Part shown: positions 2,341 through 9,989 of the stretch, piece after piece | Layout: every line of letters begins with the position of its first letter | Numbering within the stretch: position 1 is the stretch's first letter | Assembly: GCF_016612545.1 (NCBI RefSeq) | Contig: NZ_JAENRY010000002.1 | Span: 1 to 64,000 of the forward strand | Origin: Streptomyces sp. MBT65 | GTDB lineage: Bacteria; Actinomycetota; Actinomycetes; Streptomycetales; Streptomycetaceae | Direction: 5' to 3' | DNA length: 64,000 bases | The notes under the pieces: model-generated | The model's database searches: none | What the model saw: the letters and a program-made list of their open reading frames with translations, nothing else | Told to the model about the DNA's origin: nothing | Position numbers and translations under genes: made by a program

Positions 2341-3741
2341 TCAGGCGGTGACGAGTGGCTTGAGCGGTGGTGCGGGTGTCGGCACGGCGGTGTGCAGGTT
2401 CCTGGTGACCTCGGTCAGGTCGGTGATGAACATGCCCGCGAGTTCCGCGGTGAACCCGGTGCGCACCACCAGACGCAGTACGGAGACGTCCTGGCAGGGC
2501 GCGGGAAAACTGTAGGCGGGCAGATGCCAGCCACGGGCGCGCATCGCGTGGGAGACGTCGAACACCGTGAAGCCCTGCGTTCCGGGCGCCAACCGGAAGG
2601 CGAACGCCGGGAGTTCGGAGCCGTCCGTGATCAACTCGTAGGGGGCGACGGCCTGGATGCGCGCGGCGAGGGCGCGGGCGGTGGAGCGGCTCTGGGCCGC
2701 CAGATTGCGCAGCCCTTCGAAGCCGTAGCGGAGGAAGCTGTAGTACTGCGCGACGACATGCGCTCCCGGGCGGGAGAAGTTGAGGGTGAAGCTGGGGGAG
2801 CTGCCGCCGAGGTAGTCGACCTCGAACACCAGGTCGTCGGGGAGGGCTTCGGCGTCGCGCCACAGGGCCCAGCCCAGGCCGGGGAAGACATGGCCGTACT
2901 TGTGCCCCGAGGTGTTGATGGAGGCGACGCGTTCGAGCTGGAAGTCCCACATCAGGCCCGGGTCGAGGAAGGGGGCGACCATCGCGCCGGACGCGCCGTC
3001 GACATGCACGGGGATGTCGGTGCCGGTGGCGGCCTGGTAGCCGTCCAGTGCCATGCAGACGTCCGCGACGGGCTCGTAGGAACCGTCGAACGTGGACCCG
3101 AGGATCGTCACCACGCCGATGGTGTTGTCGTCGCAGTACGCGGTGAGCGTGTCGGCCGTGAGGTGGTAGCGGCCCGGTTCCATCGGGACGTAACGCGGCT
3201 CCACCTCGAAGTAGTTGGCGAACTTCTTCCAGCACACCTGGACGTTCGCGCCCATCACGATGTTCGGGCGCGCGGTGTCCTTGCCCTGGGCGCGTCGGCG
3301 CTCCTGCCAGCGGCGCTTGAGCGCGAGGCCGCCGAGCATCGCGGCCTCGCTCGAACCGGTCGTCGAGCAGCCGCGGACCTGGTCCGGCCGCGGCGCGTGC
3401 CACAGCCGGGCGAGCATCCGTACGCAGCGCTCCTCCATCGCCGTGATCTGCGGGTACTCGGCGCGGTCGGCGAGGTTCTTCTCGGCGGTCTCCGCCATCA
3501 ACTCCCTTGCCTGGGGCTCCATCCAGGTCGTCACGAAGGTCGCGAGGTTCAGCCGGGCGTTGCCGTCGAGCATCAGCTCGTCGCGTACCCGACGGCAGAC
3601 CAGGTCGGGCTCCGACGCGAACTCGGGCAGCTCGTCGAGGGGCTGGAGGAGGTCGGCGGCCGGCGGGAGACCGCCGGCGCGGGAAACGGTCAGGGTGTCG
3701 AACTCGGCTTCGGGCATGACGTCGGTATGCGGGATGGGCAT
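2341..3741 (-). CDS. gadB: Glutamate decarboxylase
   Basis: PLP-dependent group II decarboxylase of 466 residues, matching the length of bacterial GadA/GadB. It converts L-glutamate to GABA with proton consumption. Sequence support: the GCSTTGSSEAAMLGGLALK cofactor-binding stretch, HVDGASGAMVAPF, and the PLP lysine in NTSGHKYGHVFPG. ATG at 3741 is used; a second in-frame ATG lies 8 codons later and neither has a strong ribosome site. No glutamate/GABA antiporter gene is adjacent, so a complete acid-resistance system is not visible here. It lies 185 bases downstream of the cysteine desulfurase on the same strand and could share its transcript. Confidence 0.93.
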   Translation of the reverse strand: MPIPHTDVMPEAEFDTLTVSRAGGLPPAADLLQPLDELPEFASEPDLVCRRVRDELMLDGNARLNLATFVTTWMEPQARELMAETAEKNLADRAEYPQITAMEERCVRMLARLWHAPRPDQVRGCSTTGSSEAAMLGGLALKRRWQERRRAQGKDTARPNIVMGANVQVCWKKFANYFEVEPRYVPMEPGRYHLTADTLTAYCDDNTIGVVTILGSTFDGSYEPVADVCMALDGYQAATGTDIPVHVDGASGAMVAPFLDPGLMWDFQLERVASINTSGHKYGHVFPGLGWALWRDAEALPDDLVFEVDYLGGSSPSFTLNFSRPGAHVVAQYYSFLRYGFEGLRNLAAQSRSTARALAARIQAVAPYELITDGSELPAFAFRLAPGTQGFTVFDVSHAMRARGWHLPAYSFPAPCQDVSVLRLVVRTGFTAELAGMFITDLTEVTRNLHTAVPTPAPPLKPLVTA

Positions 3742-3926: not shown

Positions 3927-5210
3927 TCAGCGCCGTCGGACCTGGCTCAGCTCCCGCACCAGCTGGTCGATTTCGCCGTGGGTGTTGTAGAAGGCGAAGG
4001 ACGGGCGGACGGCGGTGGTGAGGCCGTAGCGCCGCAGGACCGGCTGGGCGCAGTGGTGGCCGGCCCGGACCGCGATACCGGCGGCGTCCAGCTTCTGGGC
4101 GATGTGGGCGGGGTCGGTGCCGTCGATGGTGAAGGCCGTCACGCCGACTCCGTTCGGGGGGCCGAGCAGGCGCAGGCCGGGCACGTCGTCGGCGAGGCGG
4201 TGTCGGGCGTGGGCGAGGAGTGCCGTCTCGTGGACGTGGGCCGTGTCCAGGCCGATGGATTCCAGGTAGTCGACGGCCGCGCCGAGTCCGATCGCCCCGG
4301 CGATGTGGCCGGTGCCCGCCTCGAACTTCTGTGGGGGCGGGGCGTATTGGGTGTGCTCGAAGCTGACGGACGTGATCATCGAGCCACCGCCCTGCCAGGG
4401 AGGCATGTCCTCAAGGAGTGCCGAACGGCCGTACAGGACACCGATTCCGGTCGGACCGAAGAGCTTGTGGCCGGACAGGACGTAGAAGTCGGCGCCCAAC
4501 TCGCCGACGTCCACGCGGAGATGGGGCACGGCCTGGGCGCCGTCGACGAGCACGACCGCGCCGTGCGCGTGCGCCGCGTCGGCCATCGCGCGGACGGGGA
4601 GGACGGTGCCGAGCACATTGGAGACATGCGCGAGGGCGACGATCCGCGTGCGGGGGCCGAGAAGGGCGTCGTAGGCGGTGAGGTCCACGGTGCCGTCGTC
4701 GTGCAGGGGAACGATCCGCAGCCGGGCGCCCTTCTCGGCGCACAGCGACTGCCAGGGGACGATGTTGGCGTGGTGTTCGAGGGTGGTGAGGACGATCTCG
4801 TCACCGGCGCCCACGCGAGTGCGGCCCCAGGTCTGCGCGACCAGGTTGATGCCTTCGGTGGCGCCCCGTACGAAGACGATCTCCTCGGCCCGCCCGGCTC
4901 CGACGAAACGCGCGATCCGGCTTCGCGCGCTCTCCAGCAGGGTGGTCGCCTCACGGGCGAGGGTGCGCGCGCCCCGGTGCACGTTCGAGTTGTGGCGGGC
5001 GTAGAAGTCGCTTACGGCGTCGATGACTTGGCGCGGTTTGTGGGCGGTGGCGGCGCTGTCGAGCCAGACGAGCGGGCGGCCGTGGACGGTGCGGGAGAGG
5101 GCGGGGAAGTCGGCGCGCACGGCGTGCACGGGGAAGGCCGGCGGATGGGGTGCGGCTGTACCGGCGCGGTCCAGCCAGTACCTGGCGGTGTGCGACGCGG
5201 GGGTGCTCAT
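3927..5210 (-). CDS. SufS-type cysteine desulfurase, probable encapsulin cargo
   Basis: PLP enzyme of 427 residues that takes sulfur from L-cysteine as a persulfide and releases alanine. Class features: LEHHANIVPWQ, DGAQAVPH, the PLP lysine in SGHKLFGPTGIG, and the catalytic cysteine in RAGHHCAQP. The GHHCAQP loop is the SufS (type II) pattern. The ATG overlaps the stop of the encapsulin shell gene by four bases (ATGA). Desulfurases are one of the four cargo types reported for family 2 encapsulins, so it is probably packaged. The N-terminus before the desulfurase fold is short (about 35 residues with PHPPAF), whereas the Synechococcus cargo has a very long disordered extension. No SufBCD, SufU or sulfur-acceptor gene is adjacent. 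Confidence 0.9.
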   Translation of the reverse strand: MSTPASHTARYWLDRAGTAAPHPPAFPVHAVRADFPALSRTVHGRPLVWLDSAATAHKPRQVIDAVSDFYARHNSNVHRGARTLAREATTLLESARSRIARFVGAGRAEEIVFVRGATEGINLVAQTWGRTRVGAGDEIVLTTLEHHANIVPWQSLCAEKGARLRIVPLHDDGTVDLTAYDALLGPRTRIVALAHVSNVLGTVLPVRAMADAAHAHGAVVLVDGAQAVPHLRVDVGELGADFYVLSGHKLFGPTGIGVLYGRSALLEDMPPWQGGGSMITSVSFEHTQYAPPPQKFEAGTGHIAGAIGLGAAVDYLESIGLDTAHVHETALLAHARHRLADDVPGLRLLGPPNGVGVTAFTIDGTDPAHIAQKLDAAGIAVRAGHHCAQPVLRRYGLTTAVRPSFAFYNTHGEIDQLVRELSQVRRR

Positions 5211-6619
5211 GTGTACGGGTGGTAGTGGGCGACCTGGACCTGCTCCAGCATGCCGATCGCGTCGTCCACGAGCACGGCGGCGGAGAAGTACGAGCTGACC
5301 AGGTGCGAGGCGACCGCCCGCCGGTCCAGGCCCATCGGCTCCACCGCGATGCCGGGGGCGTGCTCGTGGGGCAGCCGGTCGGGGCGCAGACCGACGACAC
5401 CCCGGTTCTCCTCACCCACCCGCAGCAGCAGGACGGTCGACGTGGACTCCACCGGGTCGACCGGGATCTTGTCCGTCGGGACCAGGGGCACCCCTCGCCA
5501 ACTGAGAAACGGACTGCCGTACATCTCGAAGATCACCGGGGGCACACCCCGGCGCGTACACTCCCGGCCGAACGCGCCGATCGCGCGCGGGTGGGCGAGG
5601 AAGAACGCGGGCTGCTTCCAGACGACGGTGAGGAGTTCGTCCAGGTCGTCAGGGGTCGGCGGGCCGGTGCGGGAGTGGACGCGGAAGGCGGGGGCGATGT
5701 TGTGCAGCAGCCCGAACTCCGGGTCGTTCAGCAGCTCGCGCTCCTGCTGCTCCAGGATCAGCTCGACGGTCAGACGCAGTTGTTCCTCGTGCTGGTTCAA
5801 CGGCACGTTGTAGAGGTCCGAGACACGGGAGTGCATCCTCAACACGGTCTGCGCCACGGCGAGTTCGTGCTCGCGCGGCTCCGGGTCGTAGTCCACGAAG
5901 GTCTCGGGCAGCTCCGCCTCGCCGTGGTGCCCCGAAGCGACGGCCGGTGTCCCCGCGCTGCCGGGCTGCCCGCCTGCCCTGAACTCCGCGAAGGCGCGGG
6001 CGAGTTCGGGATGCTCGTCCTCCAACCGCCGTAGCCGGTCCGGGTCCAGGACGAGCAGGGTGCTGTTGGTCAGGGCGACCACCGTGTACGGCCAGTCGCC
6101 GCCGCGGAGTGCGGCCTCCTCGTCGAAGAACTCCTCCTCTCCCATGACTCCGAGCACCGTCGGCTCGCCGTAGGCCCCGGTGCCGCGCCGCTCCAGCCGG
6201 CCGTGCGCGACGACGTACAGGCCGTCGGCCGGCCTGCCCGCCTCGGCCAGGGTCGTGCCGGCGATGACGTGCTTCGTACGGAACGCGGCCGCGACCTCCT
6301 CCAGCAGGCGCAGGTCCATCACGTCCCGCAGGGCGAGGAGTTCGCGCATGTCCTCGGCCATGATCCGGCTGCCGTCGGCGCCCGGGAGCAGGGTGATCCG
6401 CCCGTCGCCCACGGCGTAGGCGACACAGCGGTTGACCCGGTACGTGCCGGCCTCCACCTCGACCCAGGGGAGCAGCCTGAGTAACCAGCGCGGGGTGGTC
6501 AGCGAGAGCTGTGCCGGGGTCTTGGTGGTGGTCGCGATGCTCCGGGCGGCGCGCGTCCCGAGGCTGGTGGCGGCCGGGGTGGTGGGCTGGTTCCCGTCGT
6601 CGACGGTCCGTTCGCTCAC
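5207..6619 (-). CDS. Family 2B encapsulin shell protein with cNMP-binding insertion
   Basis: HK97-fold protein of 470 residues that assembles into a protein nanocompartment. The N-terminal arm ends in SLGTRAARSIATTTKT, then TPRWLLRLLPWVEV and TYRVNR, which match EshA/family 2 shells. Residues about 85-200 are a cyclic-nucleotide-binding-like domain (DGLYVVAHGRLE, then GEEEFFDEEA). Such an insertion defines subfamily 2B. The rest is HK97 again, including the late SPFLSWRGVPL and a C-terminal VSSYFSAAVLVDDA. The frame opens earlier at 6643, but GTG at 6619 has a good ribosome site (AAGGGATC) and fits family lengths. It is transcribed first and translationally coupled to the cysteine desulfurase. 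Whether the insertion binds a cyclic nucleotide is not shown by sequence alone. Confidence 0.9.
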   Translation of the reverse strand: MSERTVDDGNQPTTPAATSLGTRAARSIATTTKTPAQLSLTTPRWLLRLLPWVEVEAGTYRVNRCVAYAVGDGRITLLPGADGSRIMAEDMRELLALRDVMDLRLLEEVAAAFRTKHVIAGTTLAEAGRPADGLYVVAHGRLERRGTGAYGEPTVLGVMGEEEFFDEEAALRGGDWPYTVVALTNSTLLVLDPDRLRRLEDEHPELARAFAEFRAGGQPGSAGTPAVASGHHGEAELPETFVDYDPEPREHELAVAQTVLRMHSRVSDLYNVPLNQHEEQLRLTVELILEQQERELLNDPEFGLLHNIAPAFRVHSRTGPPTPDDLDELLTVVWKQPAFFLAHPRAIGAFGRECTRRGVPPVIFEMYGSPFLSWRGVPLVPTDKIPVDPVESTSTVLLLRVGEENRGVVGLRPDRLPHEHAPGIAVEPMGLDRRAVASHLVSSYFSAAVLVDDAIGMLEQVQVAHYHPYT

Positions 6620-6692
6620 GATGATCCCTTCGTGGATTCTCACACCCTGAATTCCCCGGTCAACCGCCTTTTAAATTACCCAATTCGGGGAC

Positions 6693-6721
6693 TTGACCGA
6701 AACGATCGTTATGTTCACGAT
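6693..6721 (+). promoter_or_regulatory. Candidate promoter with palindrome upstream of osmC
   Basis: TTGACC (6693-6698) and CACGAT (6716-6721) are separated by 17 bases and stand in an AT-rich stretch. They are a fair match to a housekeeping promoter reading toward the OsmC gene. The spacer holds the perfect 10-base palindrome AACGATCGTT at 6701-6710, which could be an operator. Inference from sequence only. Confidence 0.4.
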
Positions 6722-6787: not shown

Positions 6788-7210
6788 ATGGAGATCACCG
6801 GAAATACCCGAACCCACTGGGAAGGCCCGCTCAAAGAGGGCGTCGGCCGGATGAGTTTCGGCTCGGGCGCCGCCTCCCCGGATCTGCGCTATCCCCTCAG
6901 TCCGATCCCGCCCCAGCGGCAGACGTCCCCCGAGGAGCTGATCGCCGCTGCTCAGGGAGCCTGCTTCACGATGATGCTGTCCCACGTCCTCACGGAGGCC
7001 GGCACCCCGCCGAGCAGCGTGACCACGGAATGCGACGCGACGATGAGCGTCGGCACCGGATTCACGCTCATCAACATCAGGGTCCAGGCCGCCGTGCCCG
7101 GAATCACCGAGGAGGAATTGCGCCGGGCCGCCGCGACCGCTGAGCAACGCTGTCCCGTCAGCAAGGCGTTGAGCGCTATTCCGTCGAATGTGCAGACGGA
7201 ATTGGTCTGA
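6788..7210 (+). CDS. OsmC family peroxidase-like protein
   Basis: Small thiol peroxidase-like protein of 140 residues, the usual OsmC/Ohr length. These proteins reduce organic hydroperoxides in the cytoplasm using two cysteines. Both are present: AAAQGACFTMML in the long central helix and AEQRCPVSKAL near the end. GNTRTHWEGPLKEGVG at the N-terminus matches the OsmC rather than the Ohr branch. The ATG at 6788 has GGAG six bases upstream. The frame extends further upstream but without a ribosome site. It is divergent from the encapsulin operon, so the 168-base gap carries both promoters. Confidence 0.9.
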   Translation: MEITGNTRTHWEGPLKEGVGRMSFGSGAASPDLRYPLSPIPPQRQTSPEELIAAAQGACFTMMLSHVLTEAGTPPSSVTTECDATMSVGTGFTLINIRVQAAVPGITEEELRRAAATAEQRCPVSKALSAIPSNVQTELV

Positions 7211-8233: not shown

Positions 8234-9205
8234 CTACGTCGCGAACGACAGTGTGCCGGAGGCTGTCGTATCGCCGTTCTGGGTGACCTGGAAGGCCCAG
8301 CCGTCCTCGGCCGGTTCGCATTCGACGTGGACGGGGGAGTTCCACTCGGTGAAGCGCAGGGCCTGCATGTGACAGCCGCTCAGTCGGCCGGGGGAGGCGC
8401 CCACCAGGCAGGCCGCTTGGCGGGCCGCCTCCAGCAGGACCATGCCGGGTACGTGGTCGCTGGGGTGGTCGAAGAACCGCGGGTGGCGCAGATCCGCGGG
8501 CGCCACCAGCAGAGCTCCGGCGGGGTCGCGGACCAGCATCACATCCCCGGGGGACGGGACCGACACCTCGGTGGGCGAGGGGCGCCCGTGCACGTCGTCC
8601 GGAACGGGGTCGGCGGCGGCGTTCGGGCCGCGGAACGTCTCGTACTCCTCCTCCGACAGGACCCGGACACGTCCGAAGGCCGAGCCGAACTCGCGCCCGG
8701 CGGCGGAGAGTTGGATCCGTACGCTCAGCGCGACCGGCCACGGCACGTCGTCCACGCGGCGTACGTCGAACACCTCGGCCCGGCACAGCACATCGGTGGC
8801 GCCGTAACCGACCACCGGCTCCGTGTCGTTGTCGAGCAGGAAGCCGACGTTCCTGATGACGGGCCTGCTCGTGCTCGGGGCGCCGAGGAAGCGCTGACAG
8901 ATGTACAGGCCGACCTGGCGGATGGTCTCGGCGGCCAGCATCGGGTCGTGCCGTTCGTCGGAAGCGGAACCCGAACCGCAACCGGCACCGGCACCGGCAC
9001 CGGCACCGGTACGGGACGTGGCGTACGAGCGCGGCCACTGCGCGGCGAGGAGGAAACGGTCGTCGGGCAGCGCCCGGGCGTCGGTGAGCAGGACTTCGGC
9101 GACCGCTCTGCGGTGCACGAGGGTCCGGGACACACAGCTGTCCCAGCTCAGCGTCAGGTGTTCCGGGGTGGTTTCGGGCGGTGCGAGAGAGCGTGATTCA
9201 GTCAT
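8234..9205 (-). CDS. AfsA/ScbA-like gamma-butyrolactone synthase
   Basis: A 323-residue protein with the two hotdog-like repeats of the A-factor biosynthesis family, which condense a beta-ketoacyl chain with dihydroxyacetone phosphate to start gamma-butyrolactone autoregulators. Repeat 1 contains LVHRRAVAEVLLTDARAL and DPMLAAETIRQVGLYI. Repeat 2 contains LRHPRFFDHPSDHVPGMVLLEAARQAA with the expected HVPGM(V/L)xxEAxRQ. A Gly-Ala linker of five repeats (8984-9012 in DNA) sits between the first two elements. ATG 9205 was chosen because it follows the divergent promoter gap; no clear ribosome site precedes it, so a leaderless or weakly initiated start is possible. It is divergent from an ScbR-like receptor gene, the classic scbA/scbR arrangement. 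Confidence 0.88.
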   Translation of the reverse strand: MTESRSLAPPETTPEHLTLSWDSCVSRTLVHRRAVAEVLLTDARALPDDRFLLAAQWPRSYATSRTGAGAGAGAGCGSGSASDERHDPMLAAETIRQVGLYICQRFLGAPSTSRPVIRNVGFLLDNDTEPVVGYGATDVLCRAEVFDVRRVDDVPWPVALSVRIQLSAAGREFGSAFGRVRVLSEEEYETFRGPNAAADPVPDDVHGRPSPTEVSVPSPGDVMLVRDPAGALLVAPADLRHPRFFDHPSDHVPGMVLLEAARQAACLVGASPGRLSGCHMQALRFTEWNSPVHVECEPAEDGWAFQVTQNGDTTASGTLSFAT

Positions 9206-9314
9206 AAAATAATAGAAGCTATGGTTCTCCGGCATACGTGCGGGAAACGTCGGCCTGTCGGCTAGATTCACCGGAAAAGACGATCCGGCACGCAGGACAG
9301 GGGCGACCGAGAAA
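9206..9314. promoter_or_regulatory. Divergent promoter region of the AfsA-like and ScbR-like genes
   Basis: A 109-base gap shared by two divergent genes. The part near the AfsA-like start is A/T-rich (AAAATAATAG). A stretch around 9231-9252 (CATACGTGCGGGAAACGT) loosely resembles the autoregulatory elements bound by ScbR-type receptors. The match is partial and I rate it as a candidate only. Confidence 0.35.
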
Positions 9315-9989
9315 ATGCAGGAACGTGCGGAAGTCACCCGGCGGGCTGTTCTGGCGACGGCCGCGGTGCTGTTCGAACAGCACGGGTACGTCGGTACGAG
9401 CATCAGCGACGTGGCGCGTACGAGCGGGTACACCAGCGGGGCGATCTATTTCCATTTCGGCAGTAAAGAAGGACTGGCCCGGGGCGTTCTGGAAGCCCAT
9501 TTCGCCGAATGGCCGCGCTATGTGGAGCATTGGGAATCCCGGAATGCCCCCGTTCTGGACCGGCTGGTGGGTCTGAGTCTCGCCGTGGCCCGGGAATTCC
9601 GGGACAACGTGATCGTCCGGGCCGGCAACAGACTCTGGAGCGAGCGCAGATCCATCCCCGTGTCCCTGCCCCGGCCGTTCGTCGGGTGGATCGACGCGGC
9701 TGCCCGCATGCTGACCGCCGCCACGGAAGCGGGCGAACTCGATCCCGGCGTCGATGCGGAGCGCGCCGCGCGGGTCCTCGTCTCCAGCTTCTTCGGCACC
9801 CACACCGTCTCCGACGCACTGGACGACCGCCGCAACATCGAGGACGCGGTGACCGACCTGTGGATGATGCTGCTGCCCGGGCTCCAGGCGGCGCCGGTCG
9901 ATCCGGCGAAGTGTCTGGAGGGGGCCCGGAAGCTCTTGGCGGGTACGCGGGGGCAGCCTGCGGCTGCGGTGCTTGCCCACGACGACTGA
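9315..9989 (+). CDS. ScbR/ArpA-like gamma-butyrolactone receptor (TetR family)
   Basis: TetR-family repressor of 224 residues. Residues 1-55 form the DNA-binding domain (TSISDVARTSGYTSGAIYFH). The ligand domain carries FRDNVIVRAGNRLWSE and RPFVGWIDAA. These line up with the NVVARAGVRL and the following Trp of ScbR, where the Trp helps form the butyrolactone pocket. It is divergently transcribed from the AfsA-like gene, so it probably represses that gene and itself and releases on binding the autoregulator. Start ATG 9315 has only a weak GAG upstream. A pseudo-receptor that binds antibiotics rather than butyrolactone cannot be excluded, but the pocket residues favour a true receptor. Confidence 0.87.
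   Translation: MQERAEVTRRAVLATAAVLFEQHGYVGTSISDVARTSGYTSGAIYFHFGSKEGLARGVLEAHFAEWPRYVEHWESRNAPVLDRLVGLSLAVAREFRDNVIVRAGNRLWSERRSIPVSLPRPFVGWIDAAARMLTAATEAGELDPGVDAERAARVLVSSFFGTHTVSDALDDRRNIEDAVTDLWMMLLPGLQAAPVDPAKCLEGARKLLAGTRGQPAAAVLAHDD

Follow-up and report, generated by a model that had tools for sequence, protein, structure and literature searches.

A putative single-motif cargo tag and an altered shell site in a family 2B encapsulin-desulfurase operon of Streptomyces sp. MBT65

The 64,000-nucleotide stretch of Streptomyces sp. MBT65 DNA analysed here (the window) carries a family 2B encapsulin shell gene and a cysteine desulfurase (CD) gene, an operon of an ordinary, known kind by gene content and new at its putative cargo tag and docking site. 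Comparison of related loci gives an even chance to the reading that the desulfurase is loaded by a single short aromatic motif, ARYWLD, matched to an altered luminal site of the shell. It has been reported that 2B operons with a CD number 199 across 9 phyla (PMC8346489), and therefore the pairing itself is not new. An earlier note on this DNA had described desulfurase cargo as clearest for 2A shells, a view that the published 2B pairings qualify. The features discussed are the following.

3927..5210, minus strand: SufS-type cysteine desulfurase, 427 aa, ATGA overlap with the shell gene (profiles, alignments)
5169..5186, minus strand: putative cargo tag A9-R-Y-W-L-D14 (N-terminal motif comparison)
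5207..6619, minus strand: family 2B encapsulin shell, 470 aa from GTG 6619 (profile matches, overlap sequence, alignments)
5303..5305, minus strand: shell H439, equivalent of SrpI Y273 (alignment)
5336..5338, minus strand: shell P428, equivalent of SrpI F262 (alignment, column table)
5972..6385, minus strand: CBD (cNMP-type) in the E-loop, about residues 79-216 (PF00027, SrpI flanking blocks, model, fold matches)
6701..6710, no strand assigned: palindrome AACGATCGTT in the OsmC/shell intergenic region, candidate operator (intergenic comparison)
6788..7210, plus strand: divergent OsmC-family peroxiredoxin, ATG 6788 (profiles; adjacent in 6/6 window-type loci)
Contig C122, locus L009, 7674-10705: second desulfurase encapsulin, 2A-type, with two aromatic motifs in its CD

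The shell and its desulfurase partner

The shell belongs to family 2B by a curated profile (NCBIfam encap_f2b, NF041163: 602.6 bits against a cut-off of 400, profile positions 1-449 of 450 covered) and by its E-loop CBD, and the earlier note's description of a 2B form with an insert is borne out by this match together with those to PF19307 (356 bits, cut-off 22.8) and PF00027 (59.6 bits). The 2A shell model NF041162 is exceeded as well (394 against 380). GTG 6619, with GAAGGG just 5' of it, is the best start and agrees with the end coordinate in the earlier note, an alternative GTG at 6643 giving 478 aa. Among solved shells the nearest are 9bje, 9bhu and 9bix (426-452 bits over nearly the full length), from which the window shell differs in having P428 and H439, in passing NF041162 and in grouping with CD-linked shells, whereas the full-length match, the E-loop CBD and NF041163 are common to all. 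Icosahedral assembly would be expected from solved relatives such as 9bhu. The HK97 domain of the 2A shell SrpI (6x8m) is matched at 306 bits, in two blocks that lie on either side of the CBD, window-shell residues 20-65 pairing with chain residues 10-55 and residues 225-469 with 61-303. Two-component 2B operons, which include a CD type (PMC12407261), have the same shell family, whereas the window operon has one shell gene.

A structure model built from 14 sequences (mean pLDDT 51) is poor in the HK97 part and usable for the CBD alone, where ten-residue blocks across 71-210 have pLDDT 75-94. By fold comparison the CBD matches CNBDs, the matches spanning mostly residues 79-220, and 9bhu, titled as a Streptomyces griseus family 2B shell, appears only at rank 15 with an rmsd of 13.5. 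Cyclic nucleotide binding by CNBDs is defined by the GE and R-S/T-A residues of the phosphate-binding cassette. The window CBD departs from this cassette (FFDEEAALRGGDWPYTVVAL), with DE in place of GE and, in the alignment, a Trp facing the Arg of PRTA in 2pqq. It has been stated, citing earlier work, that 2B CBDs do not bind cyclic nucleotides, and also that they sit above the two-fold pores (PMC12407261). Because of the Arg to Trp replacement and this statement the cNMP label is doubtful: the insert that the earlier note called cNMP-binding stands as a CBD fold in sequence and model, and regulation by cyclic nucleotides is to be doubted.

The CD scores 540 bits against the SufS model TIGR01979 (cut-off 475), in agreement with the SufS-like partner claimed before, and the four-base overlap of the two genes, likewise noted, lies at 5207-5210 (ATGA). 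Its motifs GHHC and SGHK align with those of 1jf9 and are taken by us to supply the catalytic Cys and the PLP Lys; at the level of sequence it is an intact SufS-type desulfurase. The 2A cargo model NF041166 gives 660 bits, under its cut-off of 800, and is matched over positions 219-622 of 623 only; with positions 1-218 unmatched, the CD lacks the 2A cargo domain of roughly 200 residues. Ahead of the homology with other CDs stand 25 residues (29 ahead of the TIGR01979 match), the alignment with the closest solved desulfurases begins at about residue 25, and the ATG is the first start codon of the open frame, so that a mis-called start does not account for the short N-terminus. The earlier estimate of about 35 residues was thus right about shortness and too high in number, and its remark that the short N-terminus leaves the loading route in question holds.

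For the 2A system it has been demonstrated that SrpI is loaded through the full disordered cargo domain, that CyD without its N-terminal domain is not loaded, that a construct with AASPYYFLDG only (CyD 155-183) is insufficient, and that encapsulation raises CyD activity sevenfold (PMC8049743). The same work gives LARLANEFFS and PYYFLDG as the 2A cargo motifs; in the window CD the former is absent and the latter occurs only as the variant ARYWLD. The window pair therefore resembles SrpI-CyD in its SufS-type partner beside the shell, its HK97 match and its PYYFLDG variant, and differs from it in the CBD of the shell and in a CD without the 200-residue domain and without a LARLANEFFS-like motif. 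Among the 60 best of 131 PDB matches, no chain spans the cargo N-terminal domain, none starting before residue 266 of the 2A CD. According to the 2021 survey, no targeting peptide had been identified in its account of CD systems, whose termini are large, unannotated and mostly disordered (PMC8346489); the published 2B-CD operons have the same gene pair, whereas window-type CDs carry 21-39 residues with one tag.

The aromatic tag and the shell docking site

Six window-type loci were compared: the window, L088/L135 (genome G068), L010 (NRRL F-525), L011 (S. xylophagus), L012 (S. acidiscabies) and L013 (Catenulispora rubra); L120 (G931), with the same CD N-terminus as L010, was not counted apart. 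The motif is kept in all six, as ARYWLD except for ARYWLE in L012 and RRYWLD in L013, between flanks that vary in length and letters. An ARYWL[DE] coding pattern matches the genome once, in the window CD, and a reversed control pattern twice, so the single match proves little. No published account of the RYWL variant was found in the full-text literature, subscription papers and preprints being outside its scope. An earlier description may exist, for example in the sulfur-storage paper on Acinetobacter baumannii. Within the full-text literature, YYFL together with encapsulin leads to PMC8049743 only.

Desulfurases adjoining a shell numbered 105, of which 96 were counted after removal of one out-of-frame L131 row (the in-frame one was kept) and of 8 with identical first 200 residues, copies of own-genome loci (L001-L005, L080, L081) and CD matches below 45% identity having been left out beforehand; shell residue 428 was readable in 91. 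Where this residue is A (8), P (12) or H (1), Y-W-L is present in 21/21 CDs, as Y-W-M in L124. Beside F or L a Y-F-L/V/M/I motif is found in 42 of 47 (37 with F, 5 with L), the five CDs without it facing F in L029, L036 and L041 and L in L027 and L030. Where it is N, the motif is absent in 23/23. Five CDs without a full shell comprise four of Y-F-L type and one with no motif. In shuffled extensions Y[FW][LVIM] occurs on average 0.07 times in 21 (A/P/H), 0.94 in 47 (F/L) and 0.01 in 23 (N). Extension length, measured by a first-ATG rule, is 21-39 residues in window-type CDs, 21-169 (median 75) in all RYWL CDs, 120-534 (median 219) in Y-F-L CDs and 15-194 (median 55) in N-type CDs. Sequence resembling motif 1 was detected in 29/33 2A CDs with F428, 1/5 2A with L428 and 2/4 2B with F428, and in none of the 21 RYWL and 23 N-type CDs.

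The N-type loci (L025, L090-L094, L096, L097, L099-L107, L109-L112, L115, L116) are Streptomyces 2B-CD operons with Asn at shell 428, no such aromatic motif and extensions down to 15 residues; as they keep the operon without the motif, the motif is dispensable for shell/CD pairing. In 13 2B shells without a CD, residue 428 is F in 12 and Y in one, 'without CD' being judged on the available flanks (1.5 kb either side for L095, L098, L108, L113, L114 and L117-L119). Set aside from these were L121, whose contig ends in the CD start, and L014, L021 and L033, whose contigs end just past the shell (residues P, A and N).

In SrpI, F262 and Y273 have been reported to lie, at the three-fold axis, near density assigned to the cargo (PMC8049743). 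Where the window shell has P428 and H439 in the alignment, 9bhu, 9bje and 9bix have F and Y; His at 439 is confined to Streptomyces window-type shells (6 rows), with Y elsewhere where the column is filled. RYWL and Y-F-L shells are fully separated by 12 of 262 columns, residue 428 among them. Another of the 12, column 363, is T in 42/42 Y-F-L shells and I or V in RYWL shells, and aligns with the first residue of the luminal loop A368-P377 of Sl-Enc1 (equated with 9bje from the loop motif), a candidate for cargo loading (PMC12407261). Columns 412 and 413 (R, P) are common to RYWL and N-type shells, and 428 differs among all three classes; one idea is that columns 412-413 could relate to the disappearance of motif 1, and 428 to which version of motif 2 is present.

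Trees were inferred for the HK97 domain of 108 shells, leaving out residue 428 and three rows with too few columns, and for 94 desulfurase catalytic domains, the outgroup being two housekeeping-type SufS; both were quick searches without bootstrap, to which the branch supports given here refer. The 13 2B shells without a CD stand opposite 95 others, 2A and 2B (support 100), namely 89 beside a scored CD, four that are duplicates or additional shells of these loci, and two at contig ends. The window shell thus falls among CD-linked shells, apart from the non-CD 2B shells, which answers the phylogenetic check proposed in the earlier note. Presence of the CBD does not track this deepest split, in a sample whose members were chosen for their similarity to the window shell. 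Window-type and Catenulispora shells group together (100) and join Kitasatospora-like and N-type Streptomyces 2B-CD shells (87), and the CD tree, in agreement, places RYWL and N-type CDs together (90), opposite the Y-F-L group (94).

Coupling of the tag motif and shell residue 428 between lineages is suggested by these comparisons and not proven, because independent changes are few. A coevolution test offered two independent pairs, both in the expected direction, with which a sign test cannot reach 0.05, and when Y-F-L was set against F/L as a second contrast, most outcomes were ties. The tree requires at least 10 changes of residue 428 and 6 of the motif state, which leaves some changes unmatched.

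Neighbouring genes and distribution

A divergent OsmC gene, the shell and the CD are common to all six window-type loci; in the full-text literature OsmC is mentioned with sulfane sulfur in two papers, once in each. In the intergenic region AACGATCGTT is identical in four loci (window, L010, L011, L088) and absent from L012 and L013, and a promoter-like site on the minus strand (6663-6636) shows 9/12 matches, with 0.2 expected. Past the OsmC gene (window 8234-9989) lie a ScbA/BarX-type gamma-butyrolactone synthesis gene and an ScbR-type regulator, on opposite strands and overlapping as called.

The glutamate decarboxylase (GAD) gene (2341-3741), which begins 185 bp past the CD stop codon, had been put forward as a downstream partner on the transcript. 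It is not conserved: GAD and an aldolase-like gene are found in the window, G068 and L011 only, GAD adjoining the operon in two of the six loci (window and L135 of G068) and lying 1.9 kb off in L011, with none in L010, L012 (about 6.7 kb downstream of the CD scanned) or L013 (2.2 kb only), and it was rejected as an operon member. A terminator scan found none between CD and GAD, and none in the whole 64,000-nt stretch. In another Streptomyces a GAD homologue (68%; L033 5373-6566) is found 1.4 kb ahead of an N-type 2B shell, perhaps by chance.

The source genome (11.25 Mb in 833 contigs) encodes five family 2 shells, and the four besides the window shell all have F at residue 428. One of these is the 2A shell on contig C122, next to a 678-aa desulfurase with AYYFL and PYYFV; this second CD system, the aromatic tag and the divergent OsmC gene go beyond the earlier note. 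Another, a 2B shell (L008 7785-11254), is followed by terpene synthase and methyltransferase genes, a set resembling 2-methylisoborneol operons. For the 2B shells L006 and L007 no usual cargo was found among the 7 neighbours scanned, which are an FAD oxidase, an ADP-ribosylglycohydrolase, an acyl-CoA dehydrogenase and a purine permease, and an amidase, a PALP enzyme and a Na/H exchanger. A housekeeping-type SufS sits elsewhere in the genome (L079), with no shell upstream of it.

The window shell is rare: 375 of 392 same-genus genomes have a match at 1e-120, and among the matches listed identity rises above 54% only in G068 and the own genome. G931 is a further same-genus genome with a window-type shell (95%; 200 genomes of the family examined), and in a phylum sample of 396 genomes the type occurs in the own genome only. 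The 2A shell is present at 90% identity or more in 7/392 genus genomes, both window-type ones included. Within a set of 42 2B-CD genomes (6 window-type, 22 N-type Streptomyces, 14 Kitasatospora-like) it is found at 95-100% in four window-type genomes, and for the other 38, S. acidiscabies (G951) and Catenulispora (G952) included, no 2A shell above 59% is among the matches listed. A Leptospiraceae bin (L027 8001-12634) has a tandem pair of 2B shells and, after them, a CD in which no Y-F-L motif can be recognised.

How the desulfurase may be held, and what it would mean

In the proposed mechanism some 60 shell subunits would form one particle, as in solved relatives, and a single short aromatic tag, ARYWLD, within the 25-residue N-terminus of the desulfurase would retain the enzyme in it. 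This tag may be a reduced version of PYYFLDG, the second 2A motif, left after loss of motif 1 and of the long disordered domain, and would dock on the luminal side near the three-fold axis, at Pro428 (SrpI F262) and His439 (SrpI Tyr273), where the change of the tag Phe to Trp may offset the loss of the shell Phe. Inside the particle cysteine would be converted to alanine and the sulfane sulfur held or handed on; passage through the two-fold pore may be controlled by the overlying CBD, in response to a ligand other than a cyclic nucleotide, and OsmC may clear peroxides or polysulfides. The operon product would be a two-protein sulfur compartment.

Persistence of the tag in 6/6 window-type loci amid varying residues, a 428/motif match far above shuffles and the agreement of shell and CD trees argue for this single-motif reading. 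Against it stand the insufficiency of the PYYFLDG-only construct in SrpI (PMC8049743), the 11 other shell columns that also separate the motif classes, the absence of motif 1 also in 4/5 2A CDs with L428 and 2/4 2B CDs with F428, the 5/47 F/L systems without a motif, and the small number of independent changes. The SrpI construct, together with the missing 2A cargo domain and with motif-less N-type relatives that have as few as 15 extra residues, also speaks for a desulfurase that stays free in the cytosol or on the shell exterior, the operon being kept for co-regulation or another cargo; this appears unlikely, since RYWL is kept in all six loci amid variable linkers and the two trees agree. 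Loading through catalytic-domain surfaces, as might occur in the motif-less N-type, whose operons persist without any motif, would leave RYWL for dimer contacts or sulfur hand-over, for example; the resemblance of RYWL to the known 2A motif and the failure of CyD without its N-terminal domain to load (PMC8049743) make this quite improbable. A separate question is whether the 428/motif match reflects shared ancestry only, in clades that differ at many sites, with no physical contact. This is compatible with every loading reading, so its likelihood does not compete with theirs, and it is plausible at somewhat less than an even chance: only two independent pairs are available and 11 further columns behave alike, whereas F262 had been named beforehand by others as a likely cargo contact (PMC8049743) and motif and residue both differ again on the N-type branch.

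Returning to the single-motif reading, the altered tag/site pair could keep cargoes apart, because the genome also has a 2A shell with a YYFL-tagged desulfurase. Insulation from that system is not supported as the driver of the change, since the altered site also occurs in Catenulispora and S. acidiscabies, for which no 2A shell is listed. The fuller proposal, in which a 25-residue N-terminus with one RYWL loads the CD and the compensated change (tag Y-F-L to Y-W-L, shell F to A/P/H) makes the pair orthogonal to the genome's own 2A shell, is tentative and on balance rather unlikely.

The entry of family 2 desulfurases into their shells is only partly known so far, and this lineage resembles a natural deletion experiment in which a variant of motif 2 alone was kept and the suspected docking residue was changed. 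The altered site may bear on the insufficiency of motif 2 alone in SrpI (PMC8049743). Tag and site are open to testing by point mutants and could yield a very short loading tag for 2B shells. If the orthogonal pairing is true, a natural lock-and-key pair would sort cargo among five co-resident family 2 shells.
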